Positions 6,711 through 19,891 of a DNA stretch of 39,849 nucleotides are shown piece after piece; within the stretch, counting starts at the first letter, position 1; each line of letters opens with the position of its first letter. Origin of the DNA: an uncultured Sphingomonas sp. GTDB lineage: Bacteria > Pseudomonadota > Alphaproteobacteria > Sphingomonadales > Sphingomonadaceae. Where the stretch lies: contig CAJYJW010000032.1 in assembly GCA_913775025.1 (NCBI GenBank), positions 1 through 39,849 of the forward strand, given 5' to 3'. The translations under genes and the position numbers were made by a program. The notes under the pieces are model-generated. The model was not told the DNA's origin and ran no database searches. It worked only from the letters and a program-made list of their open reading frames with translations.

Positions 6711-6892
6711 ATCTGCCGCTAAATCTCCCTTATCTCCTCAAGATTGCAGGTCAGGGAGGCCGGACTGACAAGAGTACGCGGCTTCGATCGACCTACCTTA
6801 TGTCACAGCTTCCGAGACGTGGAGACCGGACTGTAGCTGTCTGGAAAACGGACCGGGCATGCTCGCGATTGCCCGCGCAGGAGGGGAAAGAG

Positions 6893-8158
6893 ATGTCCAC
6901 CACGTTCAAGGACGACGTTGCCGTGCCGCCCGGTCTCTCCGCCGACCGGATCGTCGATATAGACATCTATTCGCCGCCCGGACGCGAGAAGGACTTCTAC
7001 GCCGCGTGGAAGACGTTGCAGGATAATTCCCCCCCGATCGTTTGGACGTCTCGTAACGAGGGTCACTGGATCGCGCTTTCGGGCGAGGTGCTCGCAGCGG
7101 TGCAAGGCGATCCAGAGCGTTTTTCGAACCGGATCATCGTCATACCGCGCTCGGTCGGCGAAAAGCATGCGCTGATCCCGACGACAATCGATCCACCCGA
7201 GCACCGCCCGTACCGTAGATTGCTTAACGATGGTCTCTCGCTTTCAAAGATCCGACATTTACACACGGCGATCGCCTCTGTCGCAGATGAGCTTATCGGC
7301 GGGTTCGTCGGGTTCGGTCGATGCGATTTCACCGCCGAGTTCGCACGCCTTTTTCCGATCCGCATCTTCATGTCGCTGGTCGCACTGCCGATGGCTGACG
7401 CGGATCGCCTGTGTTTCCTCGCCGAATGCATGACCAGACCGAACCCGCCACTGCCGTTCGAGGACGCCAAGCAAGCTTTCTACGCGTTCCTTGCGCCCGT
7501 CGTCGCCGAAAGGCGGGGCGGCTCCGGCGAGGACATCATCAGCGCGATCGTGAATGCGGATATCAACGGCCGCAAATTGAGTGATGAGGAGGCGCTGTCG
7601 CTGTGCACGCAGTTGCTGATCGCCGGCGTAGATACGGTGGTGAACGTGCTCGCATTCATCATGCTCGAACTCGCGCGCGATCCGGCGTTGCAGGAACGGC
7701 TCGCCGGCCTCACCCGCAGCGGGTTGCTTGCCGCGACGAACGAGCTGTTCCGGCGCTTCGGCTTCGTGACGATCGCGCGAACCGTACGCGAGGACATGGA
7801 GTTTCACGGCGTCCACTTGAAGGCCGGCGACCTCGTCTGCGTGCCGACGCAGGTCCACGGGCTCGACGAGCGGATCAATGCCTGCCCGCTCTCGATCGAC
7901 CTCGATCGACGCGGCGCGCGTCATTCCGCCTTCGGCAGCGGGCCGCACATGTGCCCGGGGCAGGAACTCGCACGCGCCGAGGTGGCGATCATGCTGGAAC
8001 GCTGGTTCGCCGCGATACCGCGCTTCCATGTCGGCGCGGACGCCGACCTGCGCAATCTGGCCGGCATTGTTCCACAAATCGCCCGTCTCACGCTTGAATG
8101 GGATGTTCTGCCTATGCCTTCGCATGATGGGCAGGGGGCGATCGAAGAGCTGGCTTGA
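6893..8158 (+). CDS. Cytochrome P450, CYP101 (P450cam)-like
   Basis: A soluble class I P450 monooxygenase of 421 residues that resembles P450cam along its whole length: IPTTIDPPEHRPYRRLL, FPIRIFMSL-ALP, the I helix LLIAGVDTVVNVL with the acid-alcohol pair D247/T248, EFHGVHLKAGD, and the haem loop FGSGPHMCPGQELAR with C354 as ligand. The start at 6893 follows GAGGGGAAAG; the ORF track start at 6800 is too early. Aligned by eye to P450cam, the camphor-contact residues differ: Y96 is H92, F87 is V83 and F98 is L94, so the substrate is probably not camphor. No ferredoxin or ferredoxin reductase gene lies in the island. A monocyclic terpenoid or ionone-like substrate is a guess from the family. 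Confidence 0.93.
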   Translation: MSTTFKDDVAVPPGLSADRIVDIDIYSPPGREKDFYAAWKTLQDNSPPIVWTSRNEGHWIALSGEVLAAVQGDPERFSNRIIVIPRSVGEKHALIPTTIDPPEHRPYRRLLNDGLSLSKIRHLHTAIASVADELIGGFVGFGRCDFTAEFARLFPIRIFMSLVALPMADADRLCFLAECMTRPNPPLPFEDAKQAFYAFLAPVVAERRGGSGEDIISAIVNADINGRKLSDEEALSLCTQLLIAGVDTVVNVLAFIMLELARDPALQERLAGLTRSGLLAATNELFRRFGFVTIARTVREDMEFHGVHLKAGDLVCVPTQVHGLDERINACPLSIDLDRRGARHSAFGSGPHMCPGQELARAEVAIMLERWFAAIPRFHVGADADLRNLAGIVPQIARLTLEWDVLPMPSHDGQGAIEELA

Positions 8159-8641
8159 GGGGCGGGTCGCGCGCATCACGAGCGATGCATTGGGGTTGGA
8201 TACCGAGGATCGCGAGAAACATCGAAGAGGTTGTCATGCAGGCCGGCATCGGCTCTGCTTCGCGCCGTTAGCTGGGCGGCAAATCGGCCATCGGATGGAC
8301 AAGAGCTTCAGTGGAGACGGCGATGCCCCCCAAAGCCCTCTACATGCCTGCGCCCCTCAACCCCGCTCTCAAGGCGAAGAACAAGCGGCTTTAGGTCTTG
8401 GCGGAACTGTGACTCAGCCCATCTTGCCGATGGTGGTTGTGATGCCAGTGATATGCCGCGCGGTATCGGCGGATTAAGTGGCGTCCGATCGGCCACCTTC
8501 GTTTACTCCTAATCCTGCTGCCGGTCATGTCGGCGCTGGTGTCGTGCTCGCAAAAGCGCATCGACAATCTCCCACCTGGCATCCGACATCCGGATTCGCT
8601 CACCCAACGCCTCCAGATGGCGGCAGTAAATTCATCGCAGA
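8159..8641. other. Gap of 483 bp without an intact gene
   Basis: Between the convergent P450 and tandem SnoaL genes no ORF has a recognisable family or a good ribosome site. The minus strand at 8414-8473 reads DTARHITGITTTIGKMG then stop, which resembles the C-terminal end of an SDR (typically ARxITGxxxxVDGGMG), preceded by stops in that frame. The rest shows no recognised family. The stretch probably holds degraded DNA from earlier rearrangement of the island. Confidence 0.45.
8414..8473 (-). pseudogene. Possible SDR C-terminal remnant
   Basis: Nineteen codons ending TARHITGITTTIGKMG-stop resemble the final strand and end of classical short-chain dehydrogenases. In-frame stops lie directly upstream, so nothing longer survives. 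The match is short and could be chance; it is listed because a complete SDR gene sits nearby in the island on the same strand. Confidence 0.3.
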
Positions 8642-9715
8642 TCAGCGCGAAGAGTTGTCGAAGAAAGTGCTCGAGAGATCCAACGGAGCCCAACTGCCAT
8701 TGTTGTTCAGGCCTTCGTAAGCCCCCCCAACTTCGCTCGAAAGATTGTGGGAGCTAGCCCAGTCGAAGACGAAGCGCCGGTGCGCGATCTTCCATTCGCC
8801 GTCGCGCTTGACGAAGCGGTCCAGATAGCGCCCGCCGGTGATCGTCTCCTGCGGATCATCGCCAAGCGTGGCACTATAAGCGATAACGTAGGTTTCGCCG
8901 ACCGCTTCATCGCCTCGGATCTCGAAATATTCATTGGCCAGGCTGTGAAAACAGGAGCGGAAATTCGCGCGCACTGCGGCGACGATGCGCTGCGAGAAAT
9001 CCGGCGCCTTGCCGTCGATCACGCCGGTAACGACGTCCGCGTCCTCATGGAACACGGAGGCCAGTAAAGCTGCGTCACCACGATCGACACCGCGCGCATA
9101 TGTGGCAACGAGATCGTGAAGGGCCTGCTTGGCTAAAGCGTCATCGAGCGCACGCATGATCACGTCTCCCTTGCTATCACTGAAGGCGGAACCGGAGATA
9201 AAGTCATGCGAGGGATCGTGATCGCGATGCGCGCCACGGAGCATGCCAAGAAGCGTTATCTCAGCGTCATCACGATTGATATTCCAGTCCAGAACGTAAG
9301 TGCGATGCGCTATGCGCCAGCCTGCCGTGCAACGGACGTGCCGGTCGAGATAACGGCCACCAATCCAGCGCTGGCGATCCGGTCCGGCCGGTTCGGGCGT
9401 ACGCATATAGGCTATGACGTAGCTTTCCGAACGCGCCTCATCTCCGTCGATGCTCACCAGCATGTTCGAGATGCGGTGGAACGTAACGTCACCGTTCGCC
9501 ATGGCATCGGCGAGGATCGTGGCGAAATCAGCCGCAGGGCCGTCGAACAAACCGTAAGCGACCGTGGCGCCGGGCGCGTAGGCCGACGCTAGAAGCGCGC
9601 GGTCGTTGCGGTCCACCCCGCGGCTGTGCCGGGCAAGATTGGTGCGTATCTCGCTGGTCGCCACGAGGGCGGCAATCGCCTTATCGCGGCGCTGCGCAGG
9701 CTCGACGACCGTCAT
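8642..9715 (-). CDS. Tandem SnoaL/NTF2-like protein (two fused domains)
   Basis: One 357-residue frame holds two homologous SnoaL-like (NTF2-fold, SnoaL_4 type) units. Domain 1 (about 15-165) has LARHSRGVDRNDRALLASAY, SESYVIAYMR and GRYLDRHVRCTAGWRIAHR; domain 2 (about 190-335) repeats this as YARGVDRGDAALLASVF, GETYVIAYSA and GRYLDRFVKRDGEWKIAHR. Such proteins usually act as single-domain cyclases, isomerases, dehydratases or oxygenase partners. At the domain junction the DNA has AAGGGAG eight bases before an ATG (MRALDDALAKQ), just what a separate second gene would have. The second domain may thus also be made alone, or two genes fused by loss of a stop codon. The ATG at 9715 is preferred over the TTG at 9733. 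The reaction is unknown; neighbours imply a ring-oxidation pathway. Confidence 0.85.
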   Translation of the reverse strand: MTVVEPAQRRDKAIAALVATSEIRTNLARHSRGVDRNDRALLASAYAPGATVAYGLFDGPAADFATILADAMANGDVTFHRISNMLVSIDGDEARSESYVIAYMRTPEPAGPDRQRWIGGRYLDRHVRCTAGWRIAHRTYVLDWNINRDDAEITLLGMLRGAHRDHDPSHDFISGSAFSDSKGDVIMRALDDALAKQALHDLVATYARGVDRGDAALLASVFHEDADVVTGVIDGKAPDFSQRIVAAVRANFRSCFHSLANEYFEIRGDEAVGETYVIAYSATLGDDPQETITGGRYLDRFVKRDGEWKIAHRRFVFDWASSHNLSSEVGGAYEGLNNNGSWAPLDLSSTFFDNSSR

Positions 9716-9932
9716 ATGTCGTTGCCGGTGCAATGCGTGTGCGAATATGGCGGATGGGCGCGATGTGCATCACCTGAAAGGGATTTTGCGCGCCAAGACT
9801 TTTGGAAGCCGTCGCGACAGTGATGGCGGCCCACCGGGCCGGTTCTGTCATTGCGGCCAACGATCTCCGCGCCGTTCCCGCCGCTCGCGCAAGCAGGACG
9901 AAAGGCATGCTTCCTCGACGACAGGGTCACGC

Positions 9933-10685
9933 TCATCGCATCGTCTCTCCGTTGTCGATCGTGATCGCCGTCCCGGTGATCTGCCGCGATTCATCAAAAC
10001 CGAGGAAGAGGACAAGGTTGGTCACGTCGCGCGGGCTGCCTTGCCCGTGGTTAGCGATCTGATCCGGCCCCGACTCGCTTTCCGGCAATTGCGCCAGTGC
10101 CGCACGGGTCATCGGCGTGTCATGGGCGCCAGGGATGATCGCGTTCACGCGAATGCGGCTACCCTGTTCCTGGCAGAACATCGCGGTCGATCGGGTGAGC
10201 GCGATGATCGCGCCCTTCGCCGCGGAATATCCCGGGATTAAGCCGACCCCTTTCGTTGCCGCCACCGATGAAACATCGATGATCGACCCACCATCTGTTC
10301 GGGCCATCAGTGGTATGCCGTGGCGACAGCCAAGGAAGGTGCCGATCGTCCTGACGTCAATCTGCAATTGCCAGTCTTCAAGGGCACAATCGACGATGGA
10401 ACCGAAGCGGACGAGGCCGGCATTGTTGACGAGAATGTCCAGCCGCTCGAAACGGCGTTCCACCTCAGTCATCGCCAGACCCCGCGCCGTGTCCGATCGC
10501 ACATCGGATTGAATCGCCGATGCATCCGGCAGGCGTGCCGCCGCCGCATGGACCGCCGCGCCGTCGATGTCAGCGAGGATCACCCTTGCGCCTTCTGCCG
10601 CCAGCAACGCGGCGTCTGCGAGCCCGTATCCCGACGCCACGCCCGTCACCAGCGCCACCTTCCCCGCGACGCGCCCATCCGCCAT
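9933..10685 (-). CDS. Short-chain dehydrogenase/reductase (SDR)
   Basis: A classical SDR of 250 residues: cofactor motif TGVASGYG near residue 14, the acidic D at the end of the second strand (ILADIDG) favouring NAD(H), NNAG, catalytic S in DVSSVAA, YSAAK, and the C-terminal ITGTAITIDNG. The second glycine-motif position is V-A-S-G-Y-G instead of the common GxxxGIG, an acceptable variant. The start at 10685 has GAGAAGG upstream; the longer frame from 10790 runs into the receptor gene. It lies 10 bp after the TonB receptor on the same strand and is surely co-transcribed. It probably oxidises an alcohol made by the island oxygenases; the substrate is unknown. Confidence 0.93.
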   Translation of the reverse strand: MADGRVAGKVALVTGVASGYGLADAALLAAEGARVILADIDGAAVHAAAARLPDASAIQSDVRSDTARGLAMTEVERRFERLDILVNNAGLVRFGSIVDCALEDWQLQIDVRTIGTFLGCRHGIPLMARTDGGSIIDVSSVAATKGVGLIPGYSAAKGAIIALTRSTAMFCQEQGSRIRVNAIIPGAHDTPMTRAALAQLPESESGPDQIANHGQGSPRDVTNLVLFLGFDESRQITGTAITIDNGETMR

Positions 10686-10695
10686 CTTGCCTTCT

Positions 10696-13062
10696 CTACA
10701 TATAGTTGGCGCGCAGCGTGATGCCGAAGCGCCGCGGCGGCTGATAGTTGGCGAACCCGGCGAAGCCGGGCGAGTCATAGACGCTGGCAAGATAGCGGTT
10801 GTCGAGCGCGTTCTTCACCCAAACGCTAACCGTCAGCCGGTTGCCCGGCAGCGTCCAGTCGAGATTGGCGTCGACGATGTGCGTAGGCTGGATCAGCGAC
10901 CGCGGGGTGTTCAGCACGTTGGTGAAGAATTTGGATGCGGTGTAGCTGTAGAGGGCATTGGCGGTCACTTTATTTTCGCCAAGCTCGATCGTGTAGGTCG
11001 CGCCGGCATTTGCCGACCACTCGGGCGAGTTCTGCAAACGCGCGCCCTTGAGGTTGACGGTCTGCAACGTTAGCGGATTGAGATACGGGAAGTCTTTGTA
11101 CTTCGCGTCAAGATAAGCGAGCGAGCCGGTCACCGTCAGGCCGTTTACCGGCGCTGCTGTCGCCTCAAGCTCGAAGCCCTTGATGATCGCCTTGCCGGCA
11201 TTCTGGATCGTATTGCCCTGTACCGGACCGGTCGGCGTGTTGACGAAGTAGATTTGGGCGACCTGCAGATCGCGATAGTTGGTGTGAAAACCCGCCAGGT
11301 TCACGCGCAGCCGGCGGTCGAGCAGATCGGCTTTGACACCCACCTCGATGGTGTCGACCTTCTCCGGATTATAAGGGCCGATGTCGCTCGGCAAACCGAT
11401 CCGGCCGACGAACCCGCCCGATTTGAACCCGCGTGCCCAGTTGCCGTAGGCAAGGATGCGATCCGTGATCTTCCAGTCGAGCCCCAGTTTCCACCCGACG
11501 TTGTTCCAGGACTTGGAGTCGACAGGATTGATCCGGCTGAGTTGTAACGCGTTGGTGCCCTCGAAATCGATCAGGCCCGCGGGGTTCAACAGATTGTCCA
11601 GCGACGCGTCCATCCTTGTCCGTTCATACGTATAACGGATACCGGCCTGGGCGCGGAGCGTATCGGTAATGTCGAAATAGTTCTGCAGAAAACCTGAAAC
11701 AGAATAATTTTCCTGGTCCTGCCGGTTTACCTGCATCAATCCGGGATTGGCGAAGGTCAGGCGGAAATCCTGCTGCAGGAAATAGTGATCCTTGATGTAG
11801 AACGCACCGGCAATGGCGTTCCACCAGTCCGTTATTCGAGCACTGGTCCGCAACTCCTGCGAGAATTGCCAGGCGCGGGTGCGGCGGCGCGTGTCGGCGA
11901 GCGAAAGGGGCGTGCCGTCCTGATCGGTGTATTCGAAGACGTTGACCTTCTTATATCCCGTAATCGACGTGATGTCGCCGATCGCGGTGTCGCGCAGGTT
12001 GAGCGTCAGCGTGCCCTTATAGGTGTTCAGGTTGGATACGTCCGGTACCGAATTGTTGGCCGAGAAATACTTGTCCGGCGCGTCGCAGCGCTGGCCGGGC
12101 TGGCAGGGTGATTGATACATGTTCTGTACGCCGGGGGGCACGTAGGTGATCTCGCCCGGGTAGGCGCCGTTGACCACGATCGGCGCGCCGTTGCGACCGC
12201 GATCATATTCGCCGCTGGCGATCGCATCGAAGGTTGACGACGGGCTCCACTTCAATGTGCCGCGCACGACCTGTACGTTACGCTTCCCCATCTTGCTGCC
12301 GTCCACGACGTTCGTGACCCAGCCATTATATTCGTCGTGCGAGGCGGCGATGCGCGCCGAAAGGGTGTCGCTCAGCGGCGTATTGACAACGCCATTGACG
12401 TTGAAGCCGCCATAATTGCTGAGCGTCGCCTCGCCCTTTGCGCCGAAGCGATCGGTCGGCAGAGCATTGACAACGTTGATGACGCCTCCGGTCGTGTTCG
12501 CTCCAAAGAGCGTGCCCTGCGGTCCGCGCAGCGTCTCGATGCGATCGATGTCGAGCAGATCGACAAGCGCGCCGGTCGAAAAGAATTGCGGCACGCCGTC
12601 GACGACGATCGACACGGTGTTGCCAGCGTAGGGATCAGGTTCGATCACGCCGATACCGCGGATCGTGAACACCGCCGAGTTCGGCGTGTTCGAAAAATTG
12701 TTGATCTGGACGTTAGGCGTCGTGCCTTGCAGCCCTTGGATCGTCACCGCGTGGAGGTTGGCCACTGCGGCGCCACTCACCGCAGTAACAGAAATCGGTA
12801 CGTTCTGGAGATTCTCGGCCCGCTTCTGCGCGGTGACGACGATGTCCTGAAGGCCGGTGGTTCCAGCGCTCGTATCGCTGATCGCCGCAGGGCTACCAAC
12901 CGCACGCAACTCGGTGACCGGGGTGCCTGCCGCCCGACCCACCTCGGGCGCGACAGGCGGCGCGGGCTGCGGTGTCGCGACAGCTGGCTGCGCCGCGACT
13001 GTTCCGGCCGTCAGTAGTGCGGCGACAGCGACCGACGAACGAAAAAGGCCCACACGGTCCAT
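10696..13062 (-). CDS. TonB-dependent receptor of the catabolic island
   Basis: A complete outer-membrane receptor of about 788 residues. Signal peptide MDRVGLFRSSVAVAALLTAG ends near VAAQPA. The plug follows, with DIVVTAQKRAENLQNVPISV, GVGVIEPD-type RGIGVIEPDPY, and RGPQGTLFGANTTGGVINVV. The barrel includes ILAYGNWARGFKSGGF and a C-terminal strand RRFGITLRANYM. ATG at about 13062 is chosen because GGGGGAGG lies upstream and the signal peptide starts there. It leads an operon with the SDR. A GGACGATCGTCC palindrome 132 bp upstream probably places it under the adjacent TetR regulator. Receptors of this group in sphingomonads often serve uptake of hydrophobic organic compounds, which would fit the oxygenases; that is inference. 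Confidence 0.95.
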   Translation of the reverse strand: MDRVGLFRSSVAVAALLTAGTVAAQPAVATPQPAPPVAPEVGRAAGTPVTELRAVGSPAAISDTSAGTTGLQDIVVTAQKRAENLQNVPISVTAVSGAAVANLHAVTIQGLQGTTPNVQINNFSNTPNSAVFTIRGIGVIEPDPYAGNTVSIVVDGVPQFFSTGALVDLLDIDRIETLRGPQGTLFGANTTGGVINVVNALPTDRFGAKGEATLSNYGGFNVNGVVNTPLSDTLSARIAASHDEYNGWVTNVVDGSKMGKRNVQVVRGTLKWSPSSTFDAIASGEYDRGRNGAPIVVNGAYPGEITYVPPGVQNMYQSPCQPGQRCDAPDKYFSANNSVPDVSNLNTYKGTLTLNLRDTAIGDITSITGYKKVNVFEYTDQDGTPLSLADTRRRTRAWQFSQELRTSARITDWWNAIAGAFYIKDHYFLQQDFRLTFANPGLMQVNRQDQENYSVSGFLQNYFDITDTLRAQAGIRYTYERTRMDASLDNLLNPAGLIDFEGTNALQLSRINPVDSKSWNNVGWKLGLDWKITDRILAYGNWARGFKSGGFVGRIGLPSDIGPYNPEKVDTIEVGVKADLLDRRLRVNLAGFHTNYRDLQVAQIYFVNTPTGPVQGNTIQNAGKAIIKGFELEATAAPVNGLTVTGSLAYLDAKYKDFPYLNPLTLQTVNLKGARLQNSPEWSANAGATYTIELGENKVTANALYSYTASKFFTNVLNTPRSLIQPTHIVDANLDWTLPGNRLTVSVWVKNALDNRYLASVYDSPGFAGFANYQPPRRFGITLRANYM

Positions 13063-13193
13063 CGAACAACCTCCCCCTGCGCGGTTTGGCTGCGATCCTT
13101 GCCGCATTGCCCCCGCTATCCCGCGCGGTTCCACCACCGGAATGCCGCGCGCCACGGGCTAGTGGCCGCAGCAAGGCCCGTCTGAAATAGATC

Positions 13194-13205
13194 GGACGAT
13201 CGTCC
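13194..13205. promoter_or_regulatory. Putative TetR operator in front of the TonB receptor operon
   Basis: The perfect 12-bp palindrome GGACGATCGTCC lies in the 157-bp gap between tetR and the receptor gene. Its core is identical to the site at 13964-13977. With flanks the two sites agree on TAGGACGATCGTCCTA, each keeping one outer half. Twelve identical bases in both promoter regions around a tetR gene is the usual sign of a TetR regulon. Confidence 0.68.
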
Positions 13206-13219
13206 TACTGAACTAACGG

Positions 13220-13906
13220 CTAGGTGGGGTCGGCCAGCGCCAGATTGCCCGCCGTGAAGAAGGTGGCGGCCGGATCAAGCAGTTGGTCGATGCGGTCGGC
13301 GTCGAAATGTCCGGCCGATATCGAGTCGAGGAAGCCAGCGTCCTGCACGATGAAAACGAGCGCAGATTCGGTTAGGTAGAGGCCGATCTCGAACTGCTGC
13401 TGGTTCAGCCCGGGAAGGCCAATACGCAGGCGGTCGGCGAAAAGGTCGGACACCGCCTTCAGGCTTGCGAGCGCGGGCGTTACTTCCGGCACGCGATAAT
13501 GGCTCATGAACATCGATGTCATTCGGATATAGCTGCGCAGGCCGCGATAATCATCGACGCAGGCGCGCAAGAAGGGCGTCAGGAACGCCTTGACGATCTC
13601 GCGCGGATCGTCCCCCGCCTCGGCCAGTCCTTCGGCTACGGCATCGCGCAGTACCGGGAGGCGGCGATCGACGACCGCTTGCACCAGCGCCTCCTTCGAA
13701 GGAAAATAATGGTTGATGAGGCCCAGCGCCGCACCTCCACGAGCTGAGATCTCGCGCATCGACGCGCCATAATAGCCACGTTCTGAAAAGACCGCCTCAG
13801 CCGCATCCATGATCGCCTCGCGCCGTGCCTCGCCCTTCGCCCCACGGCGGCGCGACGGGGCGGGTGGCTGCACCGGAATTTTTTCGGCGTCGCTCACGAT
13901 GTCCAT
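13220..13906 (-). CDS. TetR-family transcriptional regulator
   Basis: A TetR/AcrR-type repressor, about 228 residues. The N-terminal helix-turn-helix is clear (EAIMDAAEAVFSERGYYGASMREISARGGAALGLINHYFPSKEAL), followed by a ligand-binding helical domain (YRGLRSYIRMTSMFMSHYR, QQQFEIGLYLTESALVFI). The start is uncertain: ATG at 13906 gives the protein listed, while ATG at 13954 adds 16 residues and sits only 10 bases from the operator-like palindrome; neither has a strong ribosome site. It lies between the receptor-SDR operon and the divergent Rieske operon with a palindrome in each gap. It probably represses both and itself until the pathway substrate or an intermediate binds. Confidence 0.9.
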   Translation of the reverse strand: MDIVSDAEKIPVQPPAPSRRRGAKGEARREAIMDAAEAVFSERGYYGASMREISARGGAALGLINHYFPSKEALVQAVVDRRLPVLRDAVAEGLAEAGDDPREIVKAFLTPFLRACVDDYRGLRSYIRMTSMFMSHYRVPEVTPALASLKAVSDLFADRLRIGLPGLNQQQFEIGLYLTESALVFIVQDAGFLDSISAGHFDADRIDQLLDPAATFFTAGNLALADPT

Positions 13907-13963
13907 TCGGCGGACCCACGCATCGTCCGAACACGCCACCCGCGGCCTCGCCATAGTGCTAGT

Positions 13964-13977
13964 AGGACGATCGTCCT
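13964..13977. promoter_or_regulatory. Putative TetR operator between tetR and the Rieske operon
   Basis: AGGACGATCGTCCT is a perfect 14-bp palindrome located in the divergent gap, 58 bp before the tetR start at 13906 and 80 bp before the Rieske start. It matches the site at 13194-13205 over its 12-bp core. From here one bound repressor could control both directions. Confidence 0.72.
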
Positions 13978-14057
13978 GTTTGAGTGCATATTCAAGACAA
14001 ATCTCCATACGATCCGGCGCGGCATCCGGGCGGAGCAGCATAGTCAGGAGAGCGTTC

Positions 14058-15398
14058 GTGACCAACATCCTCCGCCATCCGCTGACGCTCGACGGGCGTG
14101 ACGCTACCCAGTTGCGCGGCGATCCGATCACGGGCGATCGCTATACCTCGCCTGCATTCGCGAAAGCGGAATGGGATCACATGTGGACCAAGATCTGGCA
14201 CGTCGCCGGACGGCTCGCCGACATTCCCGAGAGCGGCGACTATCTTGTCCACGATTTCATGCATGAGAGCGTGATCTGCGTGCGGCAAGACGATGGCTCG
14301 ATCCGTGCCTTCTATAATGTCTGTGGGCATCGCGGCCAGCGGCTTGCAGCGAACAGCGCCTTCGCGCCCGACGGCTTCCGCTGCCCGTATCATGGCTGGC
14401 TATGGGGCATCGACGGCATCCTGAAGGATCTTCAGGACCCGGAGGACTTTCCACAGGGAAATCCTTGCGGCAAGCTTAGCTTGGCCGAGCTGACGTGCGA
14501 TACCTGGGGCGGCTTTGTCTGGTACTCGCTGGCTGAAAAGCCCCAGCCGCTGCGTGAGTATCTCGCCCCGCTGCCCGATCTCTATTCCAACTACCCGATG
14601 GATACGGCGGTCCTCGTCTTTGGGCTCAAAATCAGGCTCAACACCAATTGGAAGTTCGCGACAGACAACTTCTCCGAAAGCTATCACACCCGGACCGCAC
14701 ATCCGCAGGTGCCCCCGTGGATCGATCAGGACGTCGATAGCGCGCGACACGAAATGTACCCGCAGGGGCATGGCCGAACGGTGCAGCCGATGCGCCCCTC
14801 GCTTACCGATCGCCTGCCGGACGGCGAGCCGCACCCGTTCGACTATATTCTGCGTCAGTGGAACATCGATCCGGAGAGCTATTCGGATTTCGAAACCAAG
14901 GCGATGCAGGGCTGGCTCGATCTCAAGGCCGCGAAGAAGCGGCTGTGGCGAGAGCGCGGTTTTGTTCACTACGAGCGCATGAACGATGAGGAGCTGACCG
15001 ACAGTCCGCACACCGTCATCTTCCCCAACGTGACCTTGTCCTACCTTCCGGATAATTTGATCTTCTTCCGTACCGAGCCGCATCCGGACGACCCGAACAA
15101 GTGCACGTTCGATTTGTGGCTGATGGCCTATCCGGTCGAGGGCATGGACGAGGTGGAATCGATCATGGCCGGCCCACGCCCGCTGCGGGAGGCGGAGATC
15201 GAGGTGCGCGACTTCGACGGTGGAGCCGGCGTGCCCGAGATCGACGGGCAGATCGTTTATCAGGACATGATGCTGGCCGAGAACCAGCAGCGCGGCATGC
15301 ACTCGCGCGGCTATCGTGACAGCTATCTGGCCGCGCAGGAGACCCGCGTGCGTTTCTTCCACGAGGTGTTGAACGATTATCTGGAGGGGCGGCGCTGA
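14058..15398 (+). CDS. Rieske non-haem iron oxygenase, alpha subunit
   Basis: A ring-hydroxylating (or demethylating) oxygenase large subunit of 446 residues. The Rieske cluster motif is C89-G-H91 ... C109-P-Y-H112. The mononuclear iron site starts with NWKFATDNFSESYHTRTAHP near residues 197-216. The GTG start at 14058 has AGGAG about 8 bases upstream and begins VTNILRHPLTLDG; the long in-frame extension back to 13809 lies over tetR and is discarded. It overlaps the SnoaL-like gene by one base (TGATG). No ferredoxin or reductase for it is nearby. Domain order and length fit the SRPBCC oxygenases acting on aromatic acids or similar compounds; the substrate cannot be read from the sequence. Confidence 0.94.
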   Translation: MTNILRHPLTLDGRDATQLRGDPITGDRYTSPAFAKAEWDHMWTKIWHVAGRLADIPESGDYLVHDFMHESVICVRQDDGSIRAFYNVCGHRGQRLAANSAFAPDGFRCPYHGWLWGIDGILKDLQDPEDFPQGNPCGKLSLAELTCDTWGGFVWYSLAEKPQPLREYLAPLPDLYSNYPMDTAVLVFGLKIRLNTNWKFATDNFSESYHTRTAHPQVPPWIDQDVDSARHEMYPQGHGRTVQPMRPSLTDRLPDGEPHPFDYILRQWNIDPESYSDFETKAMQGWLDLKAAKKRLWRERGFVHYERMNDEELTDSPHTVIFPNVTLSYLPDNLIFFRTEPHPDDPNKCTFDLWLMAYPVEGMDEVESIMAGPRPLREAEIEVRDFDGGAGVPEIDGQIVYQDMMLAENQQRGMHSRGYRDSYLAAQETRVRFFHEVLNDYLEGRR

Positions 15399-17179: not shown

Positions 17180-19891
17180 CTAGCGGAGGGTTTCGGATCG
17201 CGCAACGGGTTTATCGCGTCCGCTGGCGATGCGCATCTTTCCGAGAAAGGCGGGGCCTGCCGCCCGTAGCAGACGATCGACCATGTCATGGCCGAGCTTG
17301 CGATAGCTTTCCCACTGCGCCTCATCGAAGAACTGATCGCTGGTCGCTTGCTGGGGAAAGGAGGGGTTCGCACGGGCGTAGGCGGCTACATCGAGGCTCA
17401 AGGCCGGGATCGGGCGCGGCTTCAGCCACAGGATGATGCAATCCTCTTGCTCTCCGGGAAAATGCGCGCGAAGCAGCAGGGCGAAGCGGCCGGGATCCGC
17501 CAGCCGGTCATGCCAGTCCGCGTCGGGGGCTGCGTTGAGGAAGTAGCGGGCGGCATCGCCCGCGATCTCGCGCATCTCTGCCTCGGGCAGCGGCTCGATC
17601 TCGCCACGCAGATCGAGCCGGGTCTTGCGGACAAGCTGCTCGAGATCCTCGAAGCGGTCGTCGGGATCGGCCCCGCCGTCGCTTACCAGGATGACGCCGA
17701 TACGCCGGTGCAGCAAGGCATAGGCGCCGCTGTTCTCGAAATGCCCGCCATCTGACAGATAGACCCGACGCCACGTGCGGGAATATCGCGCCGTCATCTC
17801 CTCGAATAGGAAGACGAAGGTGTCGAGCCGCCGTCCGATCCAGCGCGAAACAGTCGCCTTGTCTACGCTGGCGATGCGGCCGCCATGATCCCACCAATAG
17901 CCAAGCCGGAGGTTGGCGAAGGTGAGCGTCAACGCGCCGCCAAGCGACGTGAGCCGGCCCATGCCGGACGAGGCCGCCGCGCCCGATATCGCGATCCACT
18001 GCCCGATCGAAAGCGCTTCCGCCTGCGCCGCCCGCAGCGCCCGCCATCCGATCGGCGGCTCGCGATCGACGCTGATCCCATGTGGGCCGAGCAGCAGGGG
18101 CACGCCCTTGCGGTCTCGTTCGGCAATGCGCGATGCGGGCGCGATCGTCTCGTTCAGGGTGACGAGGGTGAGCGGGATGGGGGCGGTGGTGGGTATGGCG
18201 TAGAAAGCACGCGGTTCGATATGGTCGCAGGCGTCGCTTTCCGTCACGCGATGGCTCGCGCCGGTGCCGGGCGCTAGGCGGGCGAGGTTGGACGCGCCAA
18301 GATAGGCCCGCGTCAGCCGCGCGGCGTAGAGCTGATGCAGCGAGGATAGGTTGATAAAGCCCCGCGCCCGTCCCGTCATCGCGATGAGGATCGCGAGGAC
18401 GACGACCAGCGCCACGGTTGGCCTTGGGTCCAGCCCCGGCGCACCCCAGGCCGGTCCGACCCAGAGAACGGCCTGCACCGCGGCATCCACCAGCACCGCG
18501 ATGCCGCCATATAGCATCACGCCCGCGAAAAACATCGCGAGGCGGGCGTGACGCCGGATGATGGCCAACACCCTGCCGCCGGCACGCCCGCCGATCAGCG
18601 TATAAAGGCGATTGACGGCGAGTGCCGCGAGGGGGAGCCCCGCCACCGGGGCGATCCCCAAGACCCCCTCGGCGTTCCCGCCGGTGACATGATCGCGGAC
18701 GGCGAGCGCCAACCCGTCGCAGAGCCCGGCCGCGGCGAGCAGTAACGTCGCTATCCCGGCGGTCGTGAGCCGGGCCGTCAGCAGCCGGCGTATCTCCGCG
18801 GTGGGGTTGGGAAAGCGGCGTCGCGCACGCGTATAGGCCAGCAAGGCGATCGCGGCCGAGCCGGCGATATAAAGCGCCCCTGCCGCAAGGATCGGCCATG
18901 CGGGGATGCCGGCAGTGCGACGAATGGGAAGCGGCAGGCCATGGCTCGGCGCCCAGTCCGAAAGATCCCACAAAGCAAGACCCGTACCCGCCAGCAGCGC
19001 GACGACAGCGGTGGGCAGCGCCACCCATAGCAATCGCCGACGGGAGTCGAGGCGATCATCCACCAGCGCGGCGCCCAGCGGCTGCGGGTTGCTCCGCATA
19101 TTCTCGGTCATCCAATAGGCGAGGCCATAGCCGGCCGCGAAGATCGCGGCGCTGGCGGCCAGCAACAGCCAGGGGCTGAGGTATATCTGTCGCACCATGC
19201 CAGGCGCGCTCGCACCATGCGCTGGCGGCCAGGTCAGCATCGTCGCCCACGCCAACGCGTTGCTCAGGCCCAGCCCACGCGAGAGGCCGTGCAGTAACAG
19301 GGTCACGCCCGCGAACACCCCCGCCACGCCGATCGCGAACACATAGAGCATCGAAAGCCAGTTGCGGACCAGATAGGCGGCGGCGGTGGCGTAGTCGCTC
19401 GGTCCGTTCGGGGCGAGATAGCGGCTGTGCTCGCGCAGCCACCCGATGGGATTGCGGCACCGCCCGCCCGGTCCTGCGATCGTCGCATCCGCCGGTTCGC
19501 TTTCAAGGGCGGCCATGGCAAATGCATGTTGCGCGGCGATGCCGGGCGGAAGCTTGCCTTCGGGATCCTGCCAGCTCGGGCCACGCTGCGCGGGGGGCAG
19601 GAATAGGCCGCGGAGAAAGCCGCCCGTATAGCCGCCGCCCGATACGGTAGACATATAATCGAAGCGCATGAAAAGGTCGTGCGCGACGAGCGCCTGCACC
19701 AGCCCGAGCGAAAGCGTGGCGCTGCGGATGCCCCCGCCGGACAGGGCTATGCCGGCATGGCCGGTGCCGCTCCACCCTTCTGCCACGGCATCCGCCTGCC
19801 GCAGGGCGTCCAGCCGTCCGGCCAACGCCGTGTCGTCGATCGCGGGCTCGGCGCGGAAGCGTACGCCGGTCGCCGTCGTCTTGTCCGTCAT
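17180..19891 (-). CDS. Large membrane-bound patatin-like phospholipase
   Basis: A 903-residue predicted acyl hydrolase. The N-terminus has the patatin oxyanion motif SGGGIRSATLSLG (residues 51-63) and the nucleophile region MSTVSGGGYTGG with S84. Between about residues 170 and 510 lie roughly eight hydrophobic segments (for example LYVFAIGVAGVFAGVTLLL and WLLLAASAAIFAAGYGLAYW). After this the soluble domain resumes and ends with the catalytic Asp motif YLSDGGHFENSG (D714). The catalytic pair is thus split by a membrane bundle. Substrates are probably membrane or intracellular lipids; no partner gene is next to it. ATG at 19891; divergent to the peroxiredoxin operon across 150 bp. The family is clear; the physiological role is unknown. 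Confidence 0.88.
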   Translation of the reverse strand: MTDKTTATGVRFRAEPAIDDTALAGRLDALRQADAVAEGWSGTGHAGIALSGGGIRSATLSLGLVQALVAHDLFMRFDYMSTVSGGGYTGGFLRGLFLPPAQRGPSWQDPEGKLPPGIAAQHAFAMAALESEPADATIAGPGGRCRNPIGWLREHSRYLAPNGPSDYATAAAYLVRNWLSMLYVFAIGVAGVFAGVTLLLHGLSRGLGLSNALAWATMLTWPPAHGASAPGMVRQIYLSPWLLLAASAAIFAAGYGLAYWMTENMRSNPQPLGAALVDDRLDSRRRLLWVALPTAVVALLAGTGLALWDLSDWAPSHGLPLPIRRTAGIPAWPILAAGALYIAGSAAIALLAYTRARRRFPNPTAEIRRLLTARLTTAGIATLLLAAAGLCDGLALAVRDHVTGGNAEGVLGIAPVAGLPLAALAVNRLYTLIGGRAGGRVLAIIRRHARLAMFFAGVMLYGGIAVLVDAAVQAVLWVGPAWGAPGLDPRPTVALVVVLAILIAMTGRARGFINLSSLHQLYAARLTRAYLGASNLARLAPGTGASHRVTESDACDHIEPRAFYAIPTTAPIPLTLVTLNETIAPASRIAERDRKGVPLLLGPHGISVDREPPIGWRALRAAQAEALSIGQWIAISGAAASSGMGRLTSLGGALTLTFANLRLGYWWDHGGRIASVDKATVSRWIGRRLDTFVFLFEEMTARYSRTWRRVYLSDGGHFENSGAYALLHRRIGVILVSDGGADPDDRFEDLEQLVRKTRLDLRGEIEPLPEAEMREIAGDAARYFLNAAPDADWHDRLADPGRFALLLRAHFPGEQEDCIILWLKPRPIPALSLDVAAYARANPSFPQQATSDQFFDEAQWESYRKLGHDMVDRLLRAAGPAFLGKMRIASGRDKPVARSETLR

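Follow-up and report, generated by a model that had tools for sequence, protein, structure and literature searches.

A fused tandem SnoaL gene of an uncultured Sphingomonas sp. with conserved signals for a predicted second translation start at the domain seam

The locus described here joins two homologous SnoaL domains in one reading frame, with a ribosome-binding motif and a start codon standing where the second domain begins. This raises the question of whether a stop codon was recently lost between two genes, or whether a single gene would give a one-domain product alongside the two-domain one. The gene lies within a stretch of 39,849 nucleotides from an uncultured Sphingomonas sp., referred to as a whole as the window. 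Its coordinates, as proposed in a sequence-only reading, are correct; read on the minus strand, the ORF extends from ATG 9715..9713 to the stop codon 8644..8642 without any internal stop. The ORF, the Pfam matches and the positions of the elements also bear out the rest of that description, namely two domains in one frame with AAGGGAG and ATG at the start of domain 2. Pfam analysis revealed two stretches of the ORF matching SnoaL_4 (PF13577), with E 1.8e-46 and 157.7 bits as compared to a gathering cut-off of 24. The parts of the gene are as follows.

8642..9715, minus strand: long product, fused tandem SnoaL_4/NTF2-like gene (357 aa; ORF and Pfam)
9272..9664, minus strand: domain 1 (D1), ~residues 18-148, SnoaL_4 fold, invariant D35 and H80
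9167..9259, minus strand: flexible seam/linker, ~residues 153-183, AlphaFold2 (AF2) pLDDT ~50-70 over most of it
9166..9172, minus strand: internal Shine-Dalgarno (SD) AAGGGAG
9155..9157, minus strand: internal start codon ATG (Met187 in the long product), with either ATG or GTG at this place in orthologues
8642..9157, minus strand: predicted short product, domain 2 (D2) alone (171 aa), invariant D211 and H257 (numbering of the long product)

Across the seam the nucleotides read ...GATAGC AAGGGAG ACGTGATC ATG CGT GCG.... AAGGGAG occupies 9172..9166 and, after a spacer of 8 nt, the in-frame ATG occupies 9157..9155; a complete SnoaL domain lies downstream of Met187. The candidates for the 5' start are ATG 9715 and an alternative TTG 9733, and a clear SD is present at neither.

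Structure prediction by AF2 (36 orthologues, single chain) displays two confident NTF2 folds (pLDDT 90.3, pTM 0.87), joined by the low-confidence stretch of ~residues 153-183, shortly ahead of Met187 at the internal start. Foldseek placed LinA, 3ef8 and Rv3472 among the top single-domain matches, with TMt up to 0.83; among solved structures, D2 is closest to Rv3472, LinA and a scytalone dehydratase homologue. The residues D35/H80 of D1 and D211/H257 of D2 are invariant in 36 sequences; those of D2 align with the LinA D25/H73 region, and the D1 assignment was made through internal homology. With the dyad invariant in D1 as well as D2, each of the two domains may be catalytic. LinA, whose dyad is Asp25/His73, forms a trimer, and a superposition of scytalone dehydratase on the LinA-type2 trimer has been made (PMC3507683).

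The age of the fusion was elucidated from its distribution. Searches at the genus, family and order levels and in selected genera revealed 59 fused loci with 40-52% identity, corresponding to 57 distinct ones after removal of a genome fetched twice and of pNL2, which had been counted both as plasmid and as genome. The fused architecture is common to several Sphingomonadaceae genera and is also present outside Sphingomonadaceae. Every D1-bearing orthologue found is fused, and the fused D1 sequences form a single clade with 100% SH-aLRT. Measured from the seam start, the distance back to the end of D1 has 13 different values among these orthologues and the distance forward to D2 has 10, always in whole codons. 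The orthologues in pNL2 (N. aromaticivorans) and pTomTYG65a are annotated as a single CDS, the long form alone being recorded. In N. aromaticivorans DSM 12444 the orthologue has the locus tag SARO_RS18530. A phylum-level search of 399 genomes at E 1e-50 detected no fusion outside the window's own genome, and a search for a phage origin gave no match. One fused orthologue, L097 (G754), carries an in-frame TAG late in domain 2, which marks either a degraded gene or a sequencing error.

A fusion shared by about 57 divergent orthologues, with its frame kept through seams of varying length and its D1 in one clade, excludes the recent stop-codon loss that had been suggested for the gene. Single-domain architecture in all orthologues was looked for as well, and about 57 distinct orthologues proved to be fused; sequencing error as the cause of the fusion is ruled out by the same orthologues, which are fused likewise.

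At the seam, a start codon is present in all the 57 distinct fused orthologues, being ATG in 56 and GTG in one (L058, with GGAGGA upstream). The 12 residues before it have a mean pairwise identity of 24%, as compared to 60% for D1 and 57% for D2. The SD statistics were calculated on 38 representatives, less than 80% identical. An SD match of at least 4 nt occurs at the seam start in 95% of these, as compared to 14% of 235 other in-frame ATGs and 17% of all positions. The mean anti-SD pairing energy is −6.3 kcal/mol at the seam vs −1.8 kcal/mol at 238 other in-frame ATGs (Mann-Whitney 2e-15), P values being nominal because the orthologues share ancestry, with high divergence among them and signals of different kinds. 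Synonymous-codon shuffles (n=100) gave a mean of −4.8 kcal/mol (standard deviation 0.3, minimum −5.5), and the real mean lies below all of them; the SD-like site is not due to chance. The seam sites of L080, L099 and L106 are weak.

Among the representatives, C is nearly missing at positions −12..−9 from the seam start. Glycine at the seam is encoded by GGA in 32 of 34 cases, as compared to 93 of 1233 (7.5%) elsewhere, GGA being a rare Gly codon here. The seam SD occurs in different codon phases, encoding KG, RN, QGA or RGT in various orthologues, which means that the nucleotides are conserved and not the residues. Folding of 40-nt segments of the message reaches its weakest point right at the seam ATG (−4.6 vs a CDS mean of −10.4 kcal/mol), and the energy is −14 at 60-75 nt upstream. 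Comparison of the orthologues shows a start codon, a properly spaced SD and a low mRNA structure at the seam, all of them under selection. In the window gene, anti-SD pairing amounts to −8.6 kcal/mol at the seam start vs −1.7 kcal/mol at the 5' start at 9715; on sequence grounds alone, it is therefore possible that the short form outnumbers the long product here.

Fused homologues from other alphaproteobacterial families served as an out-of-sample test. The distant homologues L117 and L118, from outside the order, have AAGGGAG followed by GTG at the seam, and L119, also from outside the order, has AAGGA followed by ATG; the distant fusion L047, at 34% identity, has AAAGGA and ATG. No start codon with an SD was found at the seam in the fused paralogue clade of L120, L123 and L124. 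This shows that the fold doesn't require a seam start, and further that some fusions of this kind do without a short form. The seams of these paralogues (G911/G1134/G1038, from another alphaproteobacterial family) are Pro/Ala-rich and GC-rich, making them a natural long-only counterpart.

Free-standing D2 genes are nested inside the fused D2 sequences at least three times in the tree. No D1 was detected beside the D2-only loci L046 and L063-L073 when all frames were checked, and these are thus true D2-only genes. In L046 and L063 the start is a TTG preceded by AGGAG. Counted from the RGVDR motif it stands at position −25, where the nearest fusions, L048 and L049, have their seam Met. A start at that residue shows that a protein of the predicted short product's extent is viable. 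In L071 and L074 a D2-like gene is followed by another SnoaL gene. Several of the nested genes (L046, L063, L064 and L066-L073) are located just downstream of another gene's stop, and that of L046 adjoins a TonB receptor.

The start codon, SD, low structure, GTG swaps and paralogues without the site, when compared across the family, strongly support the second possibility raised above, that one gene would give a two-domain and a one-domain product. It is therefore the likely explanation, held with good confidence, that two LinA/scytalone-dehydratase-like domains were fused in this gene long ago, that selection has kept them fused, and that the gene would be translated from two starts. Initiation at the 5' end would yield the two-domain protein D1-D2, ribosomes on the conserved internal SD at the seam would yield D2 alone, and both proteins would accumulate. 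The extra D2 might then join D1-D2 to complete a D1-D2-D2 heterotrimer, or alternatively form a D2 homotrimer of its own.

That the internal SD and ATG are instead a relic of the old start of domain 2, left by recent stop-codon loss or a sequencing error, is extremely improbable. They do sit exactly where a separate gene would begin, and L083 and L111 are same-frame tandem SnoaL pairs with one stop between, the junction of L083 reading GGAGCC TGA CCAACA ATG with the SD ahead of the stop; but in a linker of 24% identity a relic would not have lasted, quite apart from the many divergent fused orthologues and the single CDS of pNL2 and pTomTYG65a. The one-stop pairs illustrate how such fusions can begin, and an ancient stop loss in an operonic gene pair is a plausible origin of the present one. 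Intragenic SD sequences have also been proposed to pause ribosomes, and the location of the stretch at the domain seam would suit a slowing of the ribosome between domains for co-translational folding, without initiation. Pausing, however, makes a start codon unnecessary, yet a properly spaced ATG or GTG is found in every orthologue, at the minimum of mRNA structure; GTG, also a start codon, substitutes in L058, L117 and L118, and the fused paralogues L120, L123 and L124 lack such a site, leaving this explanation very unlikely. It is scarcely credible, too, that the protein itself demands Met-Thr and Gly at the seam, for its linker structure or as a cleavage site, with the SD as a by-product. 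'MT' is frequent at the seam and the synonymous shuffles retain a moderate SD (−4.8 kcal/mol), but the SD is stronger than in 100 of 100 shuffles, the residues before the Met are unconserved, the seam Gly is almost always the rare GGA, and Val (GTG) replaces Met in three sequences.

As regards the role of the short product, some of the closest solved relatives of D2 are homotrimers in which each protomer has an active site, which suggests that an extra D2 might complete a trimer. It is tentatively proposed that D1-D2 and the internally initiated D2 would form a 2+1 heterotrimer, an asymmetric D1:D2:D2 assembly from one gene, and of the conceivable reasons for having two starts, trimer completion appears the most appealing. 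A further possibility, again short of likely, is that both products are made and the short one acts as a separate homo-oligomeric enzyme or regulator, without co-assembly with D1-D2. The free-standing D2 genes of sister lineages must work without D1, as this would have it; the retention of both products on one message over such divergence, on the other hand, suggests a fixed ratio. If the 2+1 assembly is true, an asymmetric heterotrimer would exist in an enzyme family otherwise known as homotrimers.

To our knowledge, genes encoding two proteins in this way are known mainly from secretion and CRISPR machines, and the evolutionary evidence is strong that an ordinary-looking degradative enzyme gene would do the same. 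In SctQ/SpaO, the short form arises from an internal in-frame start and the long form has two homologous C-terminal domains. As predicted here, a long protein and a separate copy of its C-terminal part come from a single gene, and the SctQ/SpaO forms co-assemble; unlike here, the product is a secretion structural component of unrelated fold, whereas the present gene encodes a catabolic NTF2-like enzyme whose co-assembly is suggested by its relatives. This type III secretion protein occurs as a long form and a C-terminal short form, e.g. SpaO-L/SpaO-short (PMC13059759). Cas11b is encoded inside cas8b, the small subunit being made through internal initiation (PMC11899642). Cas8/Cas11 resembles the present case in an in-frame internal AUG with an SD-like site that leads to a C-terminal subunit, one that can be needed in excess; it differs in being a CRISPR effector, and its Cas11 part is no tandem copy of the N-terminal part. 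The present gene is homologous to neither system, and its short product is predicted from comparative sequence analysis.

LinA, scytalone dehydratase, Rv3472 and BaiE share the fold of each domain, and the Asp/His dyad residues of LinA are found in both; unlike the present gene product, they are separate single-domain proteins, and we know of no fusion or internal start in any of them. The polyether epoxide hydrolases Lsd19 and MonBI-MonBII likewise have paired NTF2-fold domains, in one chain for Lsd19, but belong to a different pathway. A packing like that of Lsd19 was considered and rejected; the whole-chain superposition is poor (TMq ~0.3, rmsd 17-19 Å over both domains), indicating that the domain arrangement differs. 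Literature searches revealed, among the papers covered, no report pairing SnoaL with internal translation, and nothing relevant on tandem SnoaL in Novosphingobium. The signature could be scanned genome-wide in tandem-domain genes, as it comprises a start codon with GTG swaps, an SD in any phase, the rare GGA and a structure minimum, along with a paralogue clade devoid of all the seam signals.

Window positions 6800-15398 hold the fused gene together with genes for a P450, an SDR, a TonB-dependent receptor, a TetR regulator and a Rieske oxygenase alpha subunit; the pNL2 and pTomTYG65a orthologues have comparable neighbours, and this region is probably a catabolic cluster. Within this Rieske/P450/SDR-type cluster the enzyme would probably act as a dehydratase, lyase or isomerase. 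LdpA and PcfL are NTF2 enzymes of such bacteria with dehydration/deformylation chemistry (PMC12997858). Elsewhere in the window, an ORF of 903 aa (17180-19891, minus strand) has a sub-threshold patatin match alone, and is either an unusual gene or partly spurious. A further SnoaL gene lies in a different frame near the tandem pairs of both L083 and L111, and the genome of L052 (G000:C127:13000-19000) holds a further tandem SnoaL pair, the two genes of which are separate and differ in frame. The source genome itself is rich in SnoaL, with 17 matching stretches.
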